From IMG/VR virus record IMGVR_UViG_3300047560_001944, positions 1-25,412 of that record: a stretch of 25,412 bases of DNA; one strand, written 5' to 3'. This document shows positions 6,328-21,648 of this stretch, piece after piece (position 1 is the stretch's first letter; every line of letters begins with the position of its first letter). The translations under genes and the position numbers were made by a program. The notes below the pieces were generated by a model. The model had not been told where the DNA came from. It was given only the letters and a program-made list of their open reading frames with translations, and ran no database searches. Source of the stretch: a virus.

Positions 6328-9300
6328 ATGACAACCCCACTAGAGCAAGCACAATCTGACGTCCACAATGCGATGCAGATTTATCTGGGCAAAGCAAACT
6401 TTGACCCGGCATACGATGCCAACAAAGATGGCAAGATAAACTATGAGGACGTGACCGCCTTGAACAGGCAGTACGTTCAAATGTTGGATGATCGGGTTGC
6501 TGAAACAAACTCCATCTTGAAGGCTGGAGAGGGCAACAGGAACTTCTTCCAAGTCACCCGACGGGACGTAGATCTAAATCCTGAACTATCAGCTCAACAG
6601 CTTGCAAACAACACAGTAGTCAATTACTGGAGCCAGCAGTCTGAGCCTTACTCCCGTGTGATGTCGGCTATAAATAACGGCACGGCAAAATTTTCTCAAA
6701 TGCAAGTTGGCGAAAATGAAGGCGGTAGTCCTATTACAGAGCTTGTATTGACTACTGACCCAAAGAATCCTGATTGGCGCAACTCGCTCACGCTAAAACC
6801 TACGGGGACGCCAAATGTCTATCAGTTTTCTGTTTACAACCAAGTCGCTGCTGGCAATATCTCTGGCGTGTTGGTCGGAAATCCTGAGACTGGGTTTGTT
6901 GCTCCAATATTGAATGCCTCGACGCAATTTGCCTATACGCCGGGAAGCCCTGGCGGTGTGATCCGCAACATCGTCAGCGGCATCACAAGTGGTGTCAGCA
7001 GTCTTGGTCCTTTGGGTGCCGTTGCCTTAGCGTATGCCACAAGCGGTTTGAGTGCAGAGCTTGGCGCCGCTATGGGTCTTGAAGGCGCTGCCGCAACGCT
7101 TGTGGGCAATACGCTCTTGCAGACAACCCTGAATGGTGGTGATGTTGGCAAGGCTCTGACCAACTCTTTGATCTCATACGCTGGCGCCAGTGCTGGCGGT
7201 CTTGCTGGTCAGTTTGCCAAGGGTGGTGAACTGGGTGAGTTTTTGCAACAGAACCCTCAGTATGCCGCTACGATTGCCAACACGGCGACCAGAGCCGCTT
7301 TGACCGGTCAGAGTCTGGAAGATGCGGTGAAAGCCGCCACCATCTCTGTTGGGACTGATGCCGCTCTGAGTAAGATTGATGCGTTCAATGGTCTTGATAA
7401 GCAGACCCAGAACGTGATCCGCAACGCTGTTGCCGCAGAGCTTCAGGGCAAGGATGTCAACCTTCCTGGCTTGCTGACAAACGCCGCCATCAATGGTGTG
7501 ACGTCATACGCCCTGAACCAGAACGAAGACTTCAAGAAACTTGATCCGACTCTCAAGAGCCTTTTGGTGACTGAGCTTTCTGCTGGTTTGCAGGGCAGAC
7601 CTCTGGATCAAGCCGCCATCAACTGGGCGATGAATCAAGGAACTCAGGCTATCAACAAAGCCGTGATGTTCCCGAATGCAAGCGCATATGCTCAGTACAG
7701 CGGTGACATCAATGCATACACAGCCGCTGAAAACAACAGCATGGCGATTGATGCTGGTTTTCCTGACTACAAGACATACCAAGAGTACGGCGGCGACAGG
7801 GATTTGTTCACTGCCACGCAAGCTGGATTTCCTGATGTCAAAACCTTCCAGCAGTATGAGGGTGACACGCAGAGATACCAGTTGGACAAGAGGAACGAAA
7901 AGGCTGTCACTCTTGGTTTTCCTGATGATGAAACCCTGCAACGTTATAACGGCGACGTAAATCTTTACAAGAAAGACCTTGTTGCTGAGCAGAACCATCA
8001 GACCATTCTGGACACATTCCGTTCTGTGTTGGGTCGTGATCCCACGCCAGAGGAATATCAAAGATTTGCTGGTGAGAATGCAATCAACATCAAGCAAAAC
8101 TTGGTTCCATCTGACTTGTCAGAACAAGGCAAGCAGAACTACCTTGATCTGATCAAACAAGGCACTGATGCCACCAATGCGTATTCTTTGGCGAAGGCGT
8201 TTGACACAAACTACTCTCGTTGGTCTGAGGCGGATCAATATGCCAAGTTAACGCCTGAGAACACAGCGTTGCTTGATGTTCTTCAGCCTGGATCTGAAGG
8301 CTTTATGACCAAGTTCAATGACATCATTGAGAAAGAAATTTCTCTTGGTGACAAAGGGAACATGATTCCTTTGGGCAATGGCATGTACCTGAACAACGAA
8401 GTTCTTTGGAAAAAAGATGCCAATGGCGATTGGAATGGAGAGGTTCTTTCCCAAGATCAAGTTAAAGAATACAGTGATTGGGCGGACCAATACAAAAAAA
8501 CACTTGCCACCACTGATACTGGAACCAAGACCACAGATAGCGTGACTGGTGGAACTGGACAAGACACTGTCTCCGGAGGATCATCAACAGTAACAACTCC
8601 GGCTGGTGATATTTCTTCTGCTGAAGGATCAAGGCTCAAAGAAATTGGCGCTTTGCTTGGCTTGGGGACTAATGTTCCTGACGCCATCAAGAGCGCATTG
8701 TTTGGCAGTGGATCTATTGGCGCCGCCGATGGCGGGTTTTCTTTGATTACTGTTGACGCTCCTTTACGAGAGCAGGTTTTGACTTTTATTGTCAACGATC
8801 TGAACAACCCAAACTCCCCTCTCACGCCAGAAGAAAAAGAAACGTTCAAGACGATTGCCGAAAACATTCAGACGTCTCTTGACCAAACAAAAGCAGCCGA
8901 GACTACTGACACCACGAAGACGACTGTTGACGTCACCAAGACACCGGCAGACGTCACAAAAGTAACGCCAAGTACATCAAGCACCACCTCAAGCACTTCA
9001 AGCACATCAACTGCCACAAGTGATGGCGGTAGCAGTGTTGTCGGTGGAGGCGGAGGAGAGGGCGGTGGTGAAGGCGGTGGTGGTGGAACAGATGGTCAGT
9101 CTGGAGTAAGCACAGTCATTGGGGCAACCAATGGCACTGGAACCACTTCTGCGACAGGCTCTACCGGCTCTACCGGCTCTACGGGGTTTTCTGGGGTTAC
9201 CACCATCACTGGCGAGTCTGGTCGCTCAGGCTATTCAGGGCTTTCTGGAACCTCGGGTTTGTCTGGCTACTCGGGCTTGTCTGGCTACTCGGGTTTGTCT

Positions 9301-10491
9301 GGCGATTCAGGCTACTCAGGTCGTTCTGGCTATTCAGGTCTATCCGGTGAATCAGGGTATTCGGGCTTGTCAGGGTACTCAGGTTTATCTGGCGACTCAG
9401 GTTACTCTGGGCGTTCAGGGTATTCGGGTGAATCAGGCTACTCCGGAATTTCAGGTATCTCGGGCTACTCAGGCATCTCGGGCATCTCTGGGATCTCAGG
9501 TTACTCCGGCATCTCGGGTATCTCAGGTTACTCAGGAATTTCAGGTATCTCAGGTTACTCAGGAATTTCAGGTATCTCAGGTTACTCAGGCATTTCAGGT
9601 ATCTCAGGTTACTCAGGAATTTCAGGTATCTCAGGTTACTCAGGCATTTCAGGTATCTCAGGCTACTCAGGAATCTCTGGAATCTCGGGTTACTCAGGCA
9701 TTTCAGGTATCTCAGGTTACTCAGGAATCTCTGGCATTTCAGGGGTTAGCGGCTATTCTGGTCTAGTTGGTAGACCCGGTCTTGATGCTACCTCTACCGC
9801 TTTTGGCGCACAGTTTGGATCTGCCGGCACTGGCACTGGTTCGACGCCCCCTCCCCTTCAGGCTCAATTTTTAACATCAAAACAAACCCCATACCACTTT
9901 ACAAGCCCTCTGGCGGCGGTCCTTGCCTTGTCAAAAGCCATGGATACAGAGGAAAATCGGGCATCGCAGGGTGAAAATACAATGCAAACACCACATTACA
10001 GTTATGGCAACGTCAGCTCAATTGATGAAATTCTGGGTCTACCCGGCAATTTCTCTGCGCTTGATGGAAACGGAGAGACCCCCGCTGACGTTGAGGCGGC
10101 TACCGGCGGTTTGATGGCGTCTCCGTTGATGGCCGCGGCTGGTGGTACGACTGGCACCAGATACGGCAAATACGCCGCTGGAGGGCTTCCTGGCAACGTC
10201 ATTCACCACTCGGGTAAGGCTCGGGTTGACTTCCGCCGTGGAGACGCTGTAACGGGCGCTGGAGATGGTCAGAGTGATGACATCCCCGCTATGCTTGCCG
10301 ATGGGGAGTTTGTGTTCCCTGCGGACGTTGTGGCGGCTATTGGCAACGGGTCGACCAAGGCTGGAAGCGACAAGTTGTATGACATGATGCACGGCATTCG
10401 CGCGCATGTCCGTTCGGCAAAACCCAAAGATTTGCCCCCTGAAATCAAATCGCCCTTGGATTTCCTGGGCAAAAAACATAGAAAGGCTTGA
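6328..10491 (+). CDS. Very large mosaic virion protein with EF-hand-like loop and collagen-like Gly-X-Ser tract
   Basis: 1387 residues, the largest gene here. In order: a near-perfect EF-hand/dockerin-type calcium loop at 30-41 (D30, N32, D34, G35, I37, D41); a hydrophobic Ala/Gly-rich region about 225-300; four FPxxxxYxxYxGDxxxY repeats about 449-555; a LGRDPTPEEY segment near 570 resembling DUF4214; Ser/Thr-rich and Gly-rich linkers about 850-930; a Gly-X-Ser tract about 962-1147; and a C-terminal DDIPAMLADGEFVFPADVV motif near 1310. That C-terminal motif is known from many environmental phage tail and tape-measure-like proteins. It is probably a tail-tip or internal virion protein. The exact role is not determinable from sequence alone. 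It begins 1 bp after the preceding stop. Confidence 0.8.
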   Translation: MTTPLEQAQSDVHNAMQIYLGKANFDPAYDANKDGKINYEDVTALNRQYVQMLDDRVAETNSILKAGEGNRNFFQVTRRDVDLNPELSAQQLANNTVVNYWSQQSEPYSRVMSAINNGTAKFSQMQVGENEGGSPITELVLTTDPKNPDWRNSLTLKPTGTPNVYQFSVYNQVAAGNISGVLVGNPETGFVAPILNASTQFAYTPGSPGGVIRNIVSGITSGVSSLGPLGAVALAYATSGLSAELGAAMGLEGAAATLVGNTLLQTTLNGGDVGKALTNSLISYAGASAGGLAGQFAKGGELGEFLQQNPQYAATIANTATRAALTGQSLEDAVKAATISVGTDAALSKIDAFNGLDKQTQNVIRNAVAAELQGKDVNLPGLLTNAAINGVTSYALNQNEDFKKLDPTLKSLLVTELSAGLQGRPLDQAAINWAMNQGTQAINKAVMFPNASAYAQYSGDINAYTAAENNSMAIDAGFPDYKTYQEYGGDRDLFTATQAGFPDVKTFQQYEGDTQRYQLDKRNEKAVTLGFPDDETLQRYNGDVNLYKKDLVAEQNHQTILDTFRSVLGRDPTPEEYQRFAGENAINIKQNLVPSDLSEQGKQNYLDLIKQGTDATNAYSLAKAFDTNYSRWSEADQYAKLTPENTALLDVLQPGSEGFMTKFNDIIEKEISLGDKGNMIPLGNGMYLNNEVLWKKDANGDWNGEVLSQDQVKEYSDWADQYKKTLATTDTGTKTTDSVTGGTGQDTVSGGSSTVTTPAGDISSAEGSRLKEIGALLGLGTNVPDAIKSALFGSGSIGAADGGFSLITVDAPLREQVLTFIVNDLNNPNSPLTPEEKETFKTIAENIQTSLDQTKAAETTDTTKTTVDVTKTPADVTKVTPSTSSTTSSTSSTSTATSDGGSSVVGGGGGEGGGEGGGGGTDGQSGVSTVIGATNGTGTTSATGSTGSTGSTGFSGVTTITGESGRSGYSGLSGTSGLSGYSGLSGYSGLSGDSGYSGRSGYSGLSGESGYSGLSGYSGLSGDSGYSGRSGYSGESGYSGISGISGYSGISGISGISGYSGISGISGYSGISGISGYSGISGISGYSGISGISGYSGISGISGYSGISGISGYSGISGISGYSGISGISGYSGISGISGVSGYSGLVGRPGLDATSTAFGAQFGSAGTGTGSTPPPLQAQFLTSKQTPYHFTSPLAAVLALSKAMDTEENRASQGENTMQTPHYSYGNVSSIDEILGLPGNFSALDGNGETPADVEAATGGLMASPLMAAAGGTTGTRYGKYAAGGLPGNVIHHSGKARVDFRRGDAVTGAGDGQSDDIPAMLADGEFVFPADVVAAIGNGSTKAGSDKLYDMMHGIRAHVRSAKPKDLPPEIKSPLDFLGKKHRKA
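9211..9766 (+). repeat. Tandem repeat tract encoding Gly-X-Ser triplets
   Basis: About 60 consecutive G-X-S triplets, where X is mainly Tyr, Ile or Leu and the third place is almost always Ser. From about 9440 to 9740 the order becomes regular, roughly eleven copies of a 27-bp unit encoding GYSGISGIS. Neighbouring units are nearly identical at DNA level and differ mostly by third-base changes (GGAATTTCA versus GGCATTTCA). One extra GIS triplet near 9489 shows the unit can change length. The tract leaves a second frame open as a by-product. Confidence 0.92.
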
Positions 10492-18770: not shown

Positions 18771-18799
18771 ATTATATGACAGTGTTAAACACCAATATT
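18771..18799 (-). promoter_or_regulatory. Leftward early promoter (PL-like)
   Basis: On the minus strand there is a perfect TATAAT at 18776-18771. The -35 region 17 bp away (AATATT, 18799-18794) is poor, so activity may depend on a protein or the -10 alone. The palindrome GTGTTTAACAC lies in the spacer, well placed for repression. Transcription would start near 18764, 30 nt before ATG 18732. Confidence 0.6.
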
Positions 18800-18853
18800 A
18801 GGACAAACCCTTGTTTTATGAAAATAAATTGCATTGTGTTGTTTTAACACTGT
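18779..18853. promoter_or_regulatory. Paired operator-like inverted repeats in the divergent region
   Basis: ACAGTGTTAA (18779-18788) and TTAACACTGT (18844-18853) are perfect 10-bp inverted copies 55 bp apart. Each also lies in a local palindrome: GTGTT-A-AACAC at 18782-18792 in the leftward promoter and GTGTT-GTTTT-AACAC at 18836-18850 in the rightward promoter. The likely binder is the YdaS/Cro-like protein encoded at 19195. The segment between is AT-rich. Confidence 0.55.
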
Positions 18854-18861
18854 GATATAGT
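18834..18861 (+). promoter_or_regulatory. Rightward early promoter (PR-like)
   Basis: TTGTGT (18834-18839), a 16-bp spacer and TATAGT (18856-18861) give a start near 18868. The operator-like repeat GTGTT-N5-AACAC overlaps the -35 and spacer. Transcription would make a ~330-nt leader carrying the two structured elements before the regulator gene. Confidence 0.5.
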
Positions 18862-18883: not shown

Positions 18884-18958
18884 CAACACGCATGGGGATT
18901 GGGTGAAGCTCTGAAAGCCTTAGCAAGTAGGGTAGTAGCTCAGTCTCCAGTCGTGTTG
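18884..18958 (+). ncRNA. Structured leader element, copy 1
   Basis: The 75-nt element opens with CAACACG and closes with CGTGTTG (7-bp stem). A second stem pairs TGGGGATTGGG (18893-18903) with CTCAGTCTCCA (18940-18950), using G-U pairs. Inside it, after TGAAAG, is a 5-bp hairpin CCTTA-GCAAG-TAGGG (18918-18932). It starts about 16 nt after the predicted rightward transcription start. Compared with copy 2, the 5' 19 nt are identical while the hairpin differs with pairing kept, which argues for a folded RNA. It could instead be a DNA-level operator or origin element. Confidence 0.6.
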
Positions 18959-18976
18959 GTGAAAAGGGTGAGCGCC

Positions 18977-19006
18977 GCCGCATAGGCTCTAATCATGGAT
19001 TGCGGC
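18977..19006 (+). other. Stem-loop between the two structured elements
   Basis: GCCGCA (18977-18982) pairs with TGCGGC (19001-19006) around an 18-nt loop. It lies between the two leader elements and may be part of the same folded leader. No separate function can be stated. Confidence 0.4.
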
Positions 19007-19017
19007 ACACCAACAAC

Positions 19018-19090
19018 CAACACGCATGGGGATTGGCGGTATCGCCCGTGAAAGCCAACATCCGTTGGATACCAGTCCCCAGCCGTGTTG
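19018..19090 (+). ncRNA. Structured leader element, copy 2
   Basis: 73 nt with the same outer stem CAACACG/CGTGTTG and a better second stem TGGGGATTGG (19027-19036) with CCAGTCCCCA (19072-19081). A small CGG/CCG or GGCG/CGCC hairpin follows, then the conserved TGAAAG and a 5-bp hairpin CCAAC-ATCC-GTTGG. Differences from copy 1 keep pairing (G-U to G-C in the long stem, and three exchanged pairs in the hairpin). About 104 nt separate it from the ATG of the YdaS/Cro-like gene. Confidence 0.6.
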
Positions 19091-19194
19091 GGTGTTAAGC
19101 CAGCATTCGAGGATGTTGACGCAGGCGGTTTTCTGGCTTTCCCGTCTGCCCTGTTGAAGACCAAATCGAATCCAACAAAAAACTGAGAGACAAC

Positions 19195-19419
19195 ATGACA
19201 TTGACCGAATATTTCAGCACAGAACCTCGAGGCGCCAAGGTGGAGATGGCACAGTTCCTTGGCATCACCATGACGTACATGAGCCTTCTGATCCACAACA
19301 AACGCCGTCCCAGCCTGCCTATGGCTCTCAGCATTGAGCGCGCAACCCAGGGCTTGGTCACTACAAAAGATTTGCGCCCCGATCTGGTTTCTGTTGACAT
19401 GGAGAAACTGGCGGCATAA
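19195..19419 (+). CDS. YdaS/Cro-like helix-turn-helix regulator
   Basis: 74 residues. An HTH lies at about 16-45 (GAKVEMAQFLGITMTYMSLLIHNKRRPSL), followed by ALSIERATQGLVTTKDLRPDL, the typical end of YdaS/Cro-type proteins in prophages and phages. As first gene of the rightward operon behind the divergent promoters it is the best candidate to bind the GTGTT/AACAC repeats and shut down early transcription. GAGAGACAAC precedes the ATG. It could act as antitoxin-like YdaS, but no YdaT partner is seen. Confidence 0.85.
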   Translation: MTLTEYFSTEPRGAKVEMAQFLGITMTYMSLLIHNKRRPSLPMALSIERATQGLVTTKDLRPDLVSVDMEKLAA

Positions 19420-19523
19420 GATAAAGTTTTGAAACCGGCTAGGTTGGAAGTCATGAGCCAACCGAAAAGCGAACCCACCCCGCCTGCCGTAGTTTCTTTA
19501 AGGGTGGTATTGAAGGCGTGGGA

Positions 19524-20306
19524 ATGCACTATTACCAATTCAACATTGGTGACTATCAGTCACATACATCCCATCTCACTGAGATGGAAGACCTTGCCTA
19601 CAGGCGTTTGCTTGATTGGGCATACCTTCACGAAGCACCGATCCCCTTGGATATCGAGCAGATCTCTCGTTTGATCCGCATGCGTTCGTATAGCGATTGC
19701 ATTGCGTCCGTTCTGCAAGAGTTCTTCGTTCGCACAGATAGCGGATGGATATCGCATCGTGTTCAGCAAGAAATTGAGGCTGTTGGTACTAAAAAAGAGA
19801 AGGCAAGAGCCTCTGCCAATGCAAGATGGAATGCGAAAGGAATGCGATCGCATAGCGAAGGCAATGCTCCCATAACCCATAACACAGTACCCAATACCCA
19901 AGACCCAGATTTAACAGGTACTAACGTACCTGTACGTCCGGCTGATGCCGAACCAGCCCAGAAACTGCCGGAGTGTGACCATCAAGCCGTCAGAGAGCTG
20001 TACCACCAGATCCTGCCAAACCTCCCCGCCTGCGAAGTCTGGAACGAGACCCGTGCTGGTTACCTGCGACAGCGTTGGCGCGAGGTGGGCATGGACATGA
20101 TCAAAGACAACCCCGAGCAGTTGGTCACCAAGGAAATGATGCTGGACTTTTGGAGACGGTATTTCATCCATGTCGGCAAGTCCAAGTTTTTGACGGGCAG
20201 GGCGCCCGCAGGGAAGGATAGGAAGCCGTTCCTGGCTGACCTCGAGTGGATCATTCGCCCCACCAACTTTGCAAAAATCATTGAGAAGCGTTATCACGGA
20301 GACTGA
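19524..20306 (+). CDS. DUF1376 protein, probable replication initiator-like protein
   Basis: 260 residues. The N-terminal DUF1376 domain (about 1-90) starts MHYYQFNIGDYQSHTSHLT and continues MEDLAYRRLLDWAYLHEAPIPLD, then a winged-helix-like part (VLQEFFVRTDSGWISHRVQQEI). A charged, Asn/Thr-rich linker (about 95-130) leads to a C-terminal domain with RAGYLRQRWREVG, FWRRYFIHVGKSKFLTGR and FLADLEWIIRPTNFAKI. That C-terminal pattern is common in phage replication proteins and likely binds DNA or recruits helicase. ATG 19524 is preferred over GTG 19518 since DUF1376 proteins normally begin MHYY. About 100 bp before it holds no convincing gene. Confidence 0.85.
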   Translation: MHYYQFNIGDYQSHTSHLTEMEDLAYRRLLDWAYLHEAPIPLDIEQISRLIRMRSYSDCIASVLQEFFVRTDSGWISHRVQQEIEAVGTKKEKARASANARWNAKGMRSHSEGNAPITHNTVPNTQDPDLTGTNVPVRPADAEPAQKLPECDHQAVRELYHQILPNLPACEVWNETRAGYLRQRWREVGMDMIKDNPEQLVTKEMMLDFWRRYFIHVGKSKFLTGRAPAGKDRKPFLADLEWIIRPTNFAKIIEKRYHGD

Positions 20307-20308
20307 CC

Positions 20309-20752
20309 ATGGCAATCACAAAATTTGACTCATACGCAAACGAAGTTCAAAAAGAAAACGAGGAGTACAACCGCCTGCTGTGTACCGCAAACGGTTGTCC
20401 AATGGAATGGACTATAGACGCCGGCAAACGTTTGTGCAGTTTCCACGCATGGTCTGACCCGCACAAGTGGCCGCGCATCACTGATGAGCTGATCACCAAA
20501 CAAGCCCTGGGCAACCTGCCGACCTTCCAAAAGGTTCAGGACGCCGTCAAGAAGCCTGACTTCAACGCCAAAACCCTGACCATCGCTGAGAAGCAAGCCA
20601 TCCTGCTGGAGCTGAAAAAAGTTGTGCAGGGCTTTGCGACCAGAGACCCCAAGGAATGGGCAAGGCGCCTGAAAGCCAAGGAACTTGCCGGCGAACGCCT
20701 GAACAAAATCCAGCGTGATGCGTGGAGGGATGCCCTGGGAGAGCGTGCATGA
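20309..20752 (+). CDS. Zinc-binding replication-associated protein of unknown function
   Basis: 147 residues. Cys25, Cys30, Cys43 and His46 (LLCTANGCPMEW, then RLCSFHAW) form a likely zinc site, followed by DPHKWPRITDELI. Small phage proteins with this C-C...C-H / WPxIT layout often lie between initiator-like and helicase-loader or methylase genes. The rest is helical and basic (about 60-147). It starts 2 bp after the DUF1376 gene, and its stop overlaps the methyltransferase ATG. Confidence 0.72.
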   Translation: MAITKFDSYANEVQKENEEYNRLLCTANGCPMEWTIDAGKRLCSFHAWSDPHKWPRITDELITKQALGNLPTFQKVQDAVKKPDFNAKTLTIAEKQAILLELKKVVQGFATRDPKEWARRLKAKELAGERLNKIQRDAWRDALGERA

Positions 20753-21648
20753 ACAAGATCGAATTTGGAGACTGCCGGGAAACCATGCGCCGTTGGGCGT
20801 CAGAGGGCATCAAGGCGCAGACCTGTGTGACCAGCCCTCCCTACTTCGGGTTGCGAGACTATGGGCACGATGGACAGATCGGAATGGAGGAAACGCCCGA
20901 GGAGTACATCACAGCCATGGTCGAGGTGTTCCGGTGCGTCTGGGATGTTCTCGATGATGACGGAACGCTTTGGCTCAACATTGGCGACAGCTACAACGGT
21001 TCTGGTGGTCAAGGGACAAAACCAAACATCATGTCGAAAGAGGCGGCAGAGGGTCGAGGAGGGAAAGCAATCAAGGTTGATGGAATCAAATCTAAAGACC
21101 TGATTGGCATCCCCTGGATGTTGGCGTTTGCCCTTCGTGCCGATGGTTGGTATCTGCGTCAAGACATCATCTGGCACAAACCCAACCCTATGCCTGAGAG
21201 CGTTCAAGATCGTTGCACCAAGGCGCATGAGTACATCTTTTTGTTGAGCAAGTCTCAAAAATATTATTACGACATTGAGTCTATTCAAGAACCTGCAATC
21301 TATGCCGGAGATGACAGAGGATCAAGGGGAGACTCACGTCGAGGTACTGAAGCAAACTCGATGTCTGGAAAAACTGGTGAATTTAGAAACAAGCGAAGCG
21401 TTTGGACTGTAACCACAAAGCCATACGATGGCGCACACTTTGCTGTATTCCCGCAAGACCTGATCGAACCATGCATCATGGCTGGCGCACCTGTTGGAGG
21501 GGTTGTGCTTGATCCGTTCATGGGTAGCGGAACCACAGCTCAGGTTGCACAGAACCTTGGTCGCAAGTACCTTGGCTGTGAATTGAACCCTGAATACAAA
21601 CCCTTGCAATACAAGCGCTTGCGTCAACTGTCACTGGAGCTGGAATGA
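20749..21648 (+). CDS. DNA methyltransferase, beta class (N4-cytosine or N6-adenine)
   Basis: 299 residues. Catalytic motif IV TSPPYF is at 28-33 and the SAM-binding motif I DPFMGSGTT at 255-263, so the order IV-then-I marks the beta class. SPPY is commoner in N4-cytosine enzymes, but N6-adenine specificity cannot be excluded. The middle has LWLNIGDSYNG, DIIWHKPNPMPES and CTKAHEYIFLLSKS, all usual for phage orphan methylases. No cognate restriction gene is seen, so it probably protects phage DNA or changes its regulation. ATG 20749 overlaps the preceding stop (ATGA). Confidence 0.93.
   Translation: MNKIEFGDCRETMRRWASEGIKAQTCVTSPPYFGLRDYGHDGQIGMEETPEEYITAMVEVFRCVWDVLDDDGTLWLNIGDSYNGSGGQGTKPNIMSKEAAEGRGGKAIKVDGIKSKDLIGIPWMLAFALRADGWYLRQDIIWHKPNPMPESVQDRCTKAHEYIFLLSKSQKYYYDIESIQEPAIYAGDDRGSRGDSRRGTEANSMSGKTGEFRNKRSVWTVTTKPYDGAHFAVFPQDLIEPCIMAGAPVGGVVLDPFMGSGTTAQVAQNLGRKYLGCELNPEYKPLQYKRLRQLSLELE

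Follow-up and report, generated by a model that had tools for sequence, protein, structure and literature searches.

The window, by which we mean the whole stretch of DNA that was analysed, is a single IMG/VR record of 25,412 bases. Between an inverted repeat that is a candidate operator and the first gene of the early operon lies a noncoding chain, A1-B1-A2-B2, which occupies 18884-19176 and ends 18 nt before the ATG at 19195. In the A frame, our name for the unit, an exchangeable centre is enclosed by an imperfect stem that stays constant, CAACACGCATGGGGATTGG / CAGTCCCCAGCCGTGTTG, and that is modelled with an internal loop. The features are as follows.

18773..18859: 17-nt near-perfect inverted repeat, TATATGACAGTGTTAAA / TTTAACACTGTGATATA, with 53 nt between the arms, upstream of the leader
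18884..18958, + strand: A1 frame, arms at 18884-18902 and 18941-18958 around an exchangeable centre (covariance model, 60.6 bits)
18955..19014, + strand: B1 domain, read from the sequence by analogy with K1
18955-18961/19008-19014: putative B1 closing stem, GTTGGTG/CACCAAC
18966-18976: putative K1-like hairpin of B1, GG-GTGAGCG-CC
18977-18981/19002-19006: putative B1 stem, GCCGC/GCGGC
19018..19090, + strand: A2 frame, arms as in A1, centre different (covariance model, 64.8 bits)
19087..19176, + strand: B2 domain, with covariation in relatives
19087-19093/19170-19176: B2 closing stem, GTTGGGT/ATCCAAC
19098-19103/19133-19138: B2 pseudoknot stem S1, AGCCAG/CTGGCT
19121-19128/19142-19149: B2 pseudoknot stem S2, GCAGGCGG/CCGTCTGC
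19195..19419, + strand: YdaS/Cro-like gene (PF15943, phrog_35), first of the operon
19518..20306, + strand: replication (primosomal, DUF1376) protein, second gene

The 17-nt inverted repeat is likely an operator pair; the nearest relative, L122, retains its right copy, and there, too, the chain precedes a YdaS-like gene. An initial sequence-only reading had placed a structured element in an early leader, and this position was upheld; the promoter that it assumed just upstream was unsupported, in that a consensus scan found no sigma-70 promoter near the window leader. The assumed promoter region, TTTAACACTGTGATATAGTTT, is kept in L122. BLAST of the entire leader against phages gave no match. 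Elsewhere in the window, a 1387-aa protein with collagen-like repeats is encoded among the structural genes (6328-10491), a GIY-YIG-type homing endonuclease adjoins virion protein genes (1858-2592), and an N6/N4 DNA methyltransferase lies within the early operon (20722-21648).

The same reading had described two copies of a 74-nt element, at 18884-18958 and 19018-19090, and their identical 5' 19-mer, TGAAAGCC block and 3' arm were all verified. The two copies are real, but they are not a tandem duplicate of one element: they are the two frames of A1-B1-A2-B2, and what lies between and after them is not spacer but second domains closed by GTTGG and a downstream CCAAC. Measured against dinucleotide shuffles, the + strand folds with z = -6.1 for copy 1 and -4.4 for copy 2, and the reverse strand of the two copies folds less well (z = -2.5 and -2.9). 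The proposed common fold stands for the outer and second stems, which are present in both minimum-energy structures, but not for the 5-bp hairpin after TGAAAG, which appears in copy 2 only; it can be drawn in copy 1, but outside the minimum-energy fold. The G-U to G-C differences between the copies are genuine and also general, as relatives repeatedly show right-arm C-to-T changes that leave a G-U pair in place. The A1 centre recurs in L035 between other flanks, and a centre related to that of A2 is found in L069. By eye, B1 resembles the K1 domain described below, and its loops may pair with each other (GAGC/GCTC, 18970-18973/18986-18989).

The A-B chain of folded RNA domains lies in untranslated leaders of hundreds of phages, and related forms perhaps occur in lambda too. 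The exact 19-mer of the A frame was found in at least 119 IMG/VR viral stretches, and nearly all matches are followed, after a variable stretch, by the complementary right arm. The reversed pattern gave no match in 24 records, and the element is therefore more than chance. Among 84,980 bacterial and archaeal genomes (GTDB) there was a single match, in the Pirellulales MAG L148, where no right arm follows, and it was dismissed as a chance match. Most records searched carry one to three A frames at a single site. What fills the frame is far less constant: 122 A frames hold 45 unrelated centres of 3-103 nt, the smallest (3 nt) in L021 and L062, and in related phages centres have been swapped while the flanks were kept (L015, L017, L019 and L035; likewise L023, L053 and L085). 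In several phage groups, A frames or the chain stand in a leader or at the head of an operon. Around freshwater A frames, the large and small terminase subunits are the commonest families, and all 16 individually scanned terminases or close relatives share the strand of the frame; some precede it and others follow.

The RNA-level structure of the chain is under selection. A covariance model built from 42 A frames was run on loci fetched independently, via the K1 motif or the YdaS-like protein, and found more copies with paired changes, which bears out the earlier claim of selection on RNA folding. Once antisense duplicates had been taken out, covariation in the arms was counted over 53 frames, which hold 50 distinct arm pairs: 96% of cells are standard pairs, and two-sided changes number 40, where 2000 right-arm reshufflings gave 8.7 on average and at most 19, a comparison in which kinship is not controlled. 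The chief exchanges are C-G to A-U at position 6 and G-C to A-U at position 12. G-U pairs are frequent, which indicates that the + strand is the folded RNA strand, and since the arms both covary and use G-U pairs, their conservation is not merely that of DNA sites. B2, with relatives in 98 viral stretches, is an H-type pseudoknot. In S2, 47 of 49 distinct combinations pair at 6 of 6 positions (shuffled mean 10.9, maximum 20), and all 43 of 43 closing stems pair (14 on average and at most 21 after shuffling); the letters TCGAGGATG and GAAGACC are strictly kept. B2 follows an A right arm in 18 of 58 copies. In L187 (5797-5893), L442 and L468, the B2 closing stem is followed by a T-run, resembling an intrinsic terminator around a folded domain. 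The fold energy of the centres and B regions alone is only weakly below that of random windows, so the evidence for them is covariation, not energy.

K1 and K2, each present in at least 120 viral stretches, are two-hairpin B domains whose loops could pair. The closing stem of K2 exists in 47 distinct forms and is 99.3% paired, compared with 61% in shuffled sequences. The K2 loops, AGGCTGAT and AGATCAGCA, hardly vary and contain complementary CTGAT and ATCAG, which could form a loop-loop pairing. Covariation between the K1 loops is not claimed, as a single variant lies behind it. In L299, L314, L334 and L337, K2 follows freshwater A frames, and it also stands behind a different, enteric A frame, CACAACAGGTAAGAGCA / TGCTCTTTCCGTTGTG. 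The enteric frame and K2 are found in late leaders, between Q and holin, in three phages: in HK620 between pR'/qut and the late terminator, in phiEt88 after Q, and in HK629 after pR' and before holin; in PAJU2, K2 is at the same late-leader place. In mEp460 they come after the repressor, a site that we read as the pL-side leader, and the element of ST64B is likewise in the pL-side leader after the repressor. The freshwater A-arm model did not detect the enteric A frames, and for that reason the tie between the two rests on the shared K2, the layout and the position. In lambda DE3 (L420, 2441-2600), an A-like frame with the enteric arms, unannotated in the record, directly follows a terminator-like hairpin with a T-run, which we take to be tR', and precedes holin S. 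In a P1-like phage (L419, 1760-2900), several enteric A frames are interleaved with tRNA genes, and some centres contain pieces like a tRNA T-arm, such as GGGTTCGAATCCC. Chain modules in L020 (6178-6281) and L046 (4860-4931) match the Rfam tRNA model at 44-45 bits, are uncalled by ARAGORN, and are probably tRNA-like domains. In L149 (MW202484, 2800-3019), a tRNA-like gene immediately precedes an A frame and its GCCA end runs into the frame.

The K2 plan appears not to be new. By comparison, the model line of STnc100 seems to share it (closing stem, AAU, hairpin a, variable stretch, hairpin b, closing stem), and STnc100 and PasD, like K2, are located in prophages. STnc100 copies are transcribed in the EHEC EDL933 prophages, one of them verified by northern blot (PMC5331693), PasD is related to STnc100 (PMC13192938), and no function has been established for either (PMC5331693, PMC13192938). 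The STnc100 covariance model (RF02076, 47-bit bar) finds nothing in the window at E-values up to 10, nor in the freshwater loci or K2 records tested; matches below threshold occur in the P1-like phage and ST64B. Because the model misses the window and the K2 records, membership of STnc100 is not claimed. B1 and B2 of the window are domain types other than the STnc100/K2 plan, and neither the A frame nor the B2 pseudoknot is described for STnc100 or PasD.

What could such a chain do in an untranslated leader? We lean, tentatively and at something short of even confidence, to a role in cis, in which the chain keeps the transcript intact and elongating. From position and structure we infer transcription at this locus, action in cis, and an effect on elongation, Rho or decay. 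The chain would fold as RNA polymerase leaves the promoter, with each B domain folding compactly and closed by a stem of its own, and would then protect the operon and the long untranslated stretch ahead of it from termination or degradation. The early, pL-side and late leader positions, the transcribed strand and the exchange of unrelated centres favour this role, and the covariation of arms, B2 and K2 also counts for it, as does the fact that the exchanged domains share a compact fold rather than sequence. Sites upstream that resemble promoters are enriched, yet only in a minority of frames: a sigma-70-like promoter (at least 10/12, within 150 nt upstream) precedes 11 of 139 frames, compared with 0.9% in shuffles. 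On the other side, most frames have no recognisable promoter nearby, the window lacks a sigma-70 consensus promoter there, some are off operon heads, lying 3-13 nt after terL or among tRNA genes, and lambda and HK620 already have Q. Exact conservation of the 19-mer suggests a specific partner, and the T-run directly after 15 of 58 B2 copies is a better fit to a terminated small RNA or an attenuator.

The cis-acting role would be put-like, reached with an RNA apparently unrelated to put. HK022 put binds the beta' zinc domain and so suppresses termination with no phage protein involved. As appears true of the units of the chain, it is a structured RNA of about 70 nt in early leaders, but it has a two-stem fold and other letters, and descriptions of it mention no chain with exchangeable centres. 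The analogy with put drawn in the sequence-only reading holds as a possible role, but a motif scan of the HK022 immunity region found no recognisable A, K1 or K2 motif, and that no similarity to put was found counts against the cis-acting role. In HK022, putL lies just after PL and putR about 270 nt after PR (PMC9378689).

The main rival is a trans-acting RNA or decoy. Cleavage or termination of the chain could release stable RNAs, which would either base-pair with host mRNAs or, in the manner of decoys, divert tRNA nucleases, sRNAs or other defence; the exchanged centres would then represent changing specificity. We regard this as unlikely, although it has real points in its favour: the transcription of STnc100, with its K2-like core plan, in an EHEC prophage and the existence of its relative PasD, the exchange of centres at one genomic site, the tRNA-like modules and T-arm pieces, and the T-runs that end B2 copies. 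However, target pairing would hardly explain the constant arms, and antisense matches of A-frame centres, searched in the phage's own sequence, show no clear enrichment, at 8.9 nt compared with 8.6 nt in other phages. The latter result, together with the lack of a C4 (RF01695) Rfam match in the window, also leaves without support the earlier suggestion of a C4-type antisense RNA. No terminator was found in the window leader, which counts against trans-acting RNAs and equally against an attenuating or ligand-sensing switch, in which the GTTG of the A right arm would pair either with the left-arm CAAC or with the CCAAC at the end of B and so control the operon. A CCAAC partner 25-200 nt downstream does follow 104 of 140 A frames where 25 are expected, the left-arm letters are lost more often than GTTG, and B2 with its T-run resembles an attenuator; the downstream genes, unrelated across phages, suggest no ligand, and we consider a switch quite improbable.

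Could the chain instead be structural filler, any compact RNA shielding the untranslated leader from Rho and RNases without being recognised by a partner? The replacement of unrelated centres by one another and the existence of 3-nt centres would fit, but 19-nt arm identity across many phages and the strictly kept letters of B2 exceed what stability needs, making filler improbable. Less probable again is a DNA element whose arms would be recombination sites that swap cassettes like integron attC. Neisseria intergenic mosaic elements and integron attC are both short constant inverted repeats around variable inserts, and the A frame, a constant imperfect inverted repeat around variable DNA with different centres behind the same flank, has this appearance. 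Unlike them, it lies in phage leaders and covaries at the RNA level, and no recombinase was found: no integrase is among the neighbour families listed, and by eye the arms fit the attC boxes RYYYAAC/GTTRRRY poorly. Where checked, a frame and its neighbouring gene share one strand, and the G-U pairs favour RNA; given G-U covariation, DNA recombination alone is insufficient.

If the cis-acting role is correct, it would be common for phages, lambda included, to control transcript fate by RNA alone, a mode that to our knowledge is known mainly from HK022 put; in lambda the role is directly testable. Should the chain act in trans, phages would possess a large pool of RNAs whose specificity can be exchanged. 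In both cases, no fewer than three RNA domains (A frame, K2 and B2) covary strongly and have no Rfam match, and STnc100 and PasD gain structural context. It is conceivable, if somewhat doubtful, that exchangeable-domain chains in constant frames, shared by freshwater phages and by lambda, P1 and Pseudomonas phages, make up one unrecognised phage RNA class. Its single function would be elongation control or RNA counter-defence, and STnc100 would be its sole catalogued fragment.

Overall, the sequence-only interpretation was partly supported, and its failure to recognise a known family was confirmed: Rfam, at gathering and relaxed thresholds, gave no fitting family in the window or its relatives. 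The output consisted of the tRNA-like modules, C4/isrK elsewhere, unrelated or chance matches, and sub-threshold STnc100. Neither the A frame with its changing centres nor the B2 pseudoknot corresponds to any Rfam family, and we found no description of an A-frame/B2 element in the open-access literature; the K2 plan resembles that of STnc100, and the proposed role that of put. The candidate svsR (PMC12803456) was dropped, being a hairpin inside cI. GOLLD, ROOL and other ornate RNAs are comparable in being large RNAs of phages or metagenomes that have kissing loops (PMC12286853), such as the chain may also form; the chain differs in consisting of short exchangeable domains and in having no Rfam match. 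C4 antisense RNA and isrK are, like the chain, phage noncoding RNAs near immunity genes, and both are present in mEp460, on the opposite strand (L414, 1-168) and apart from the K2 leader element.
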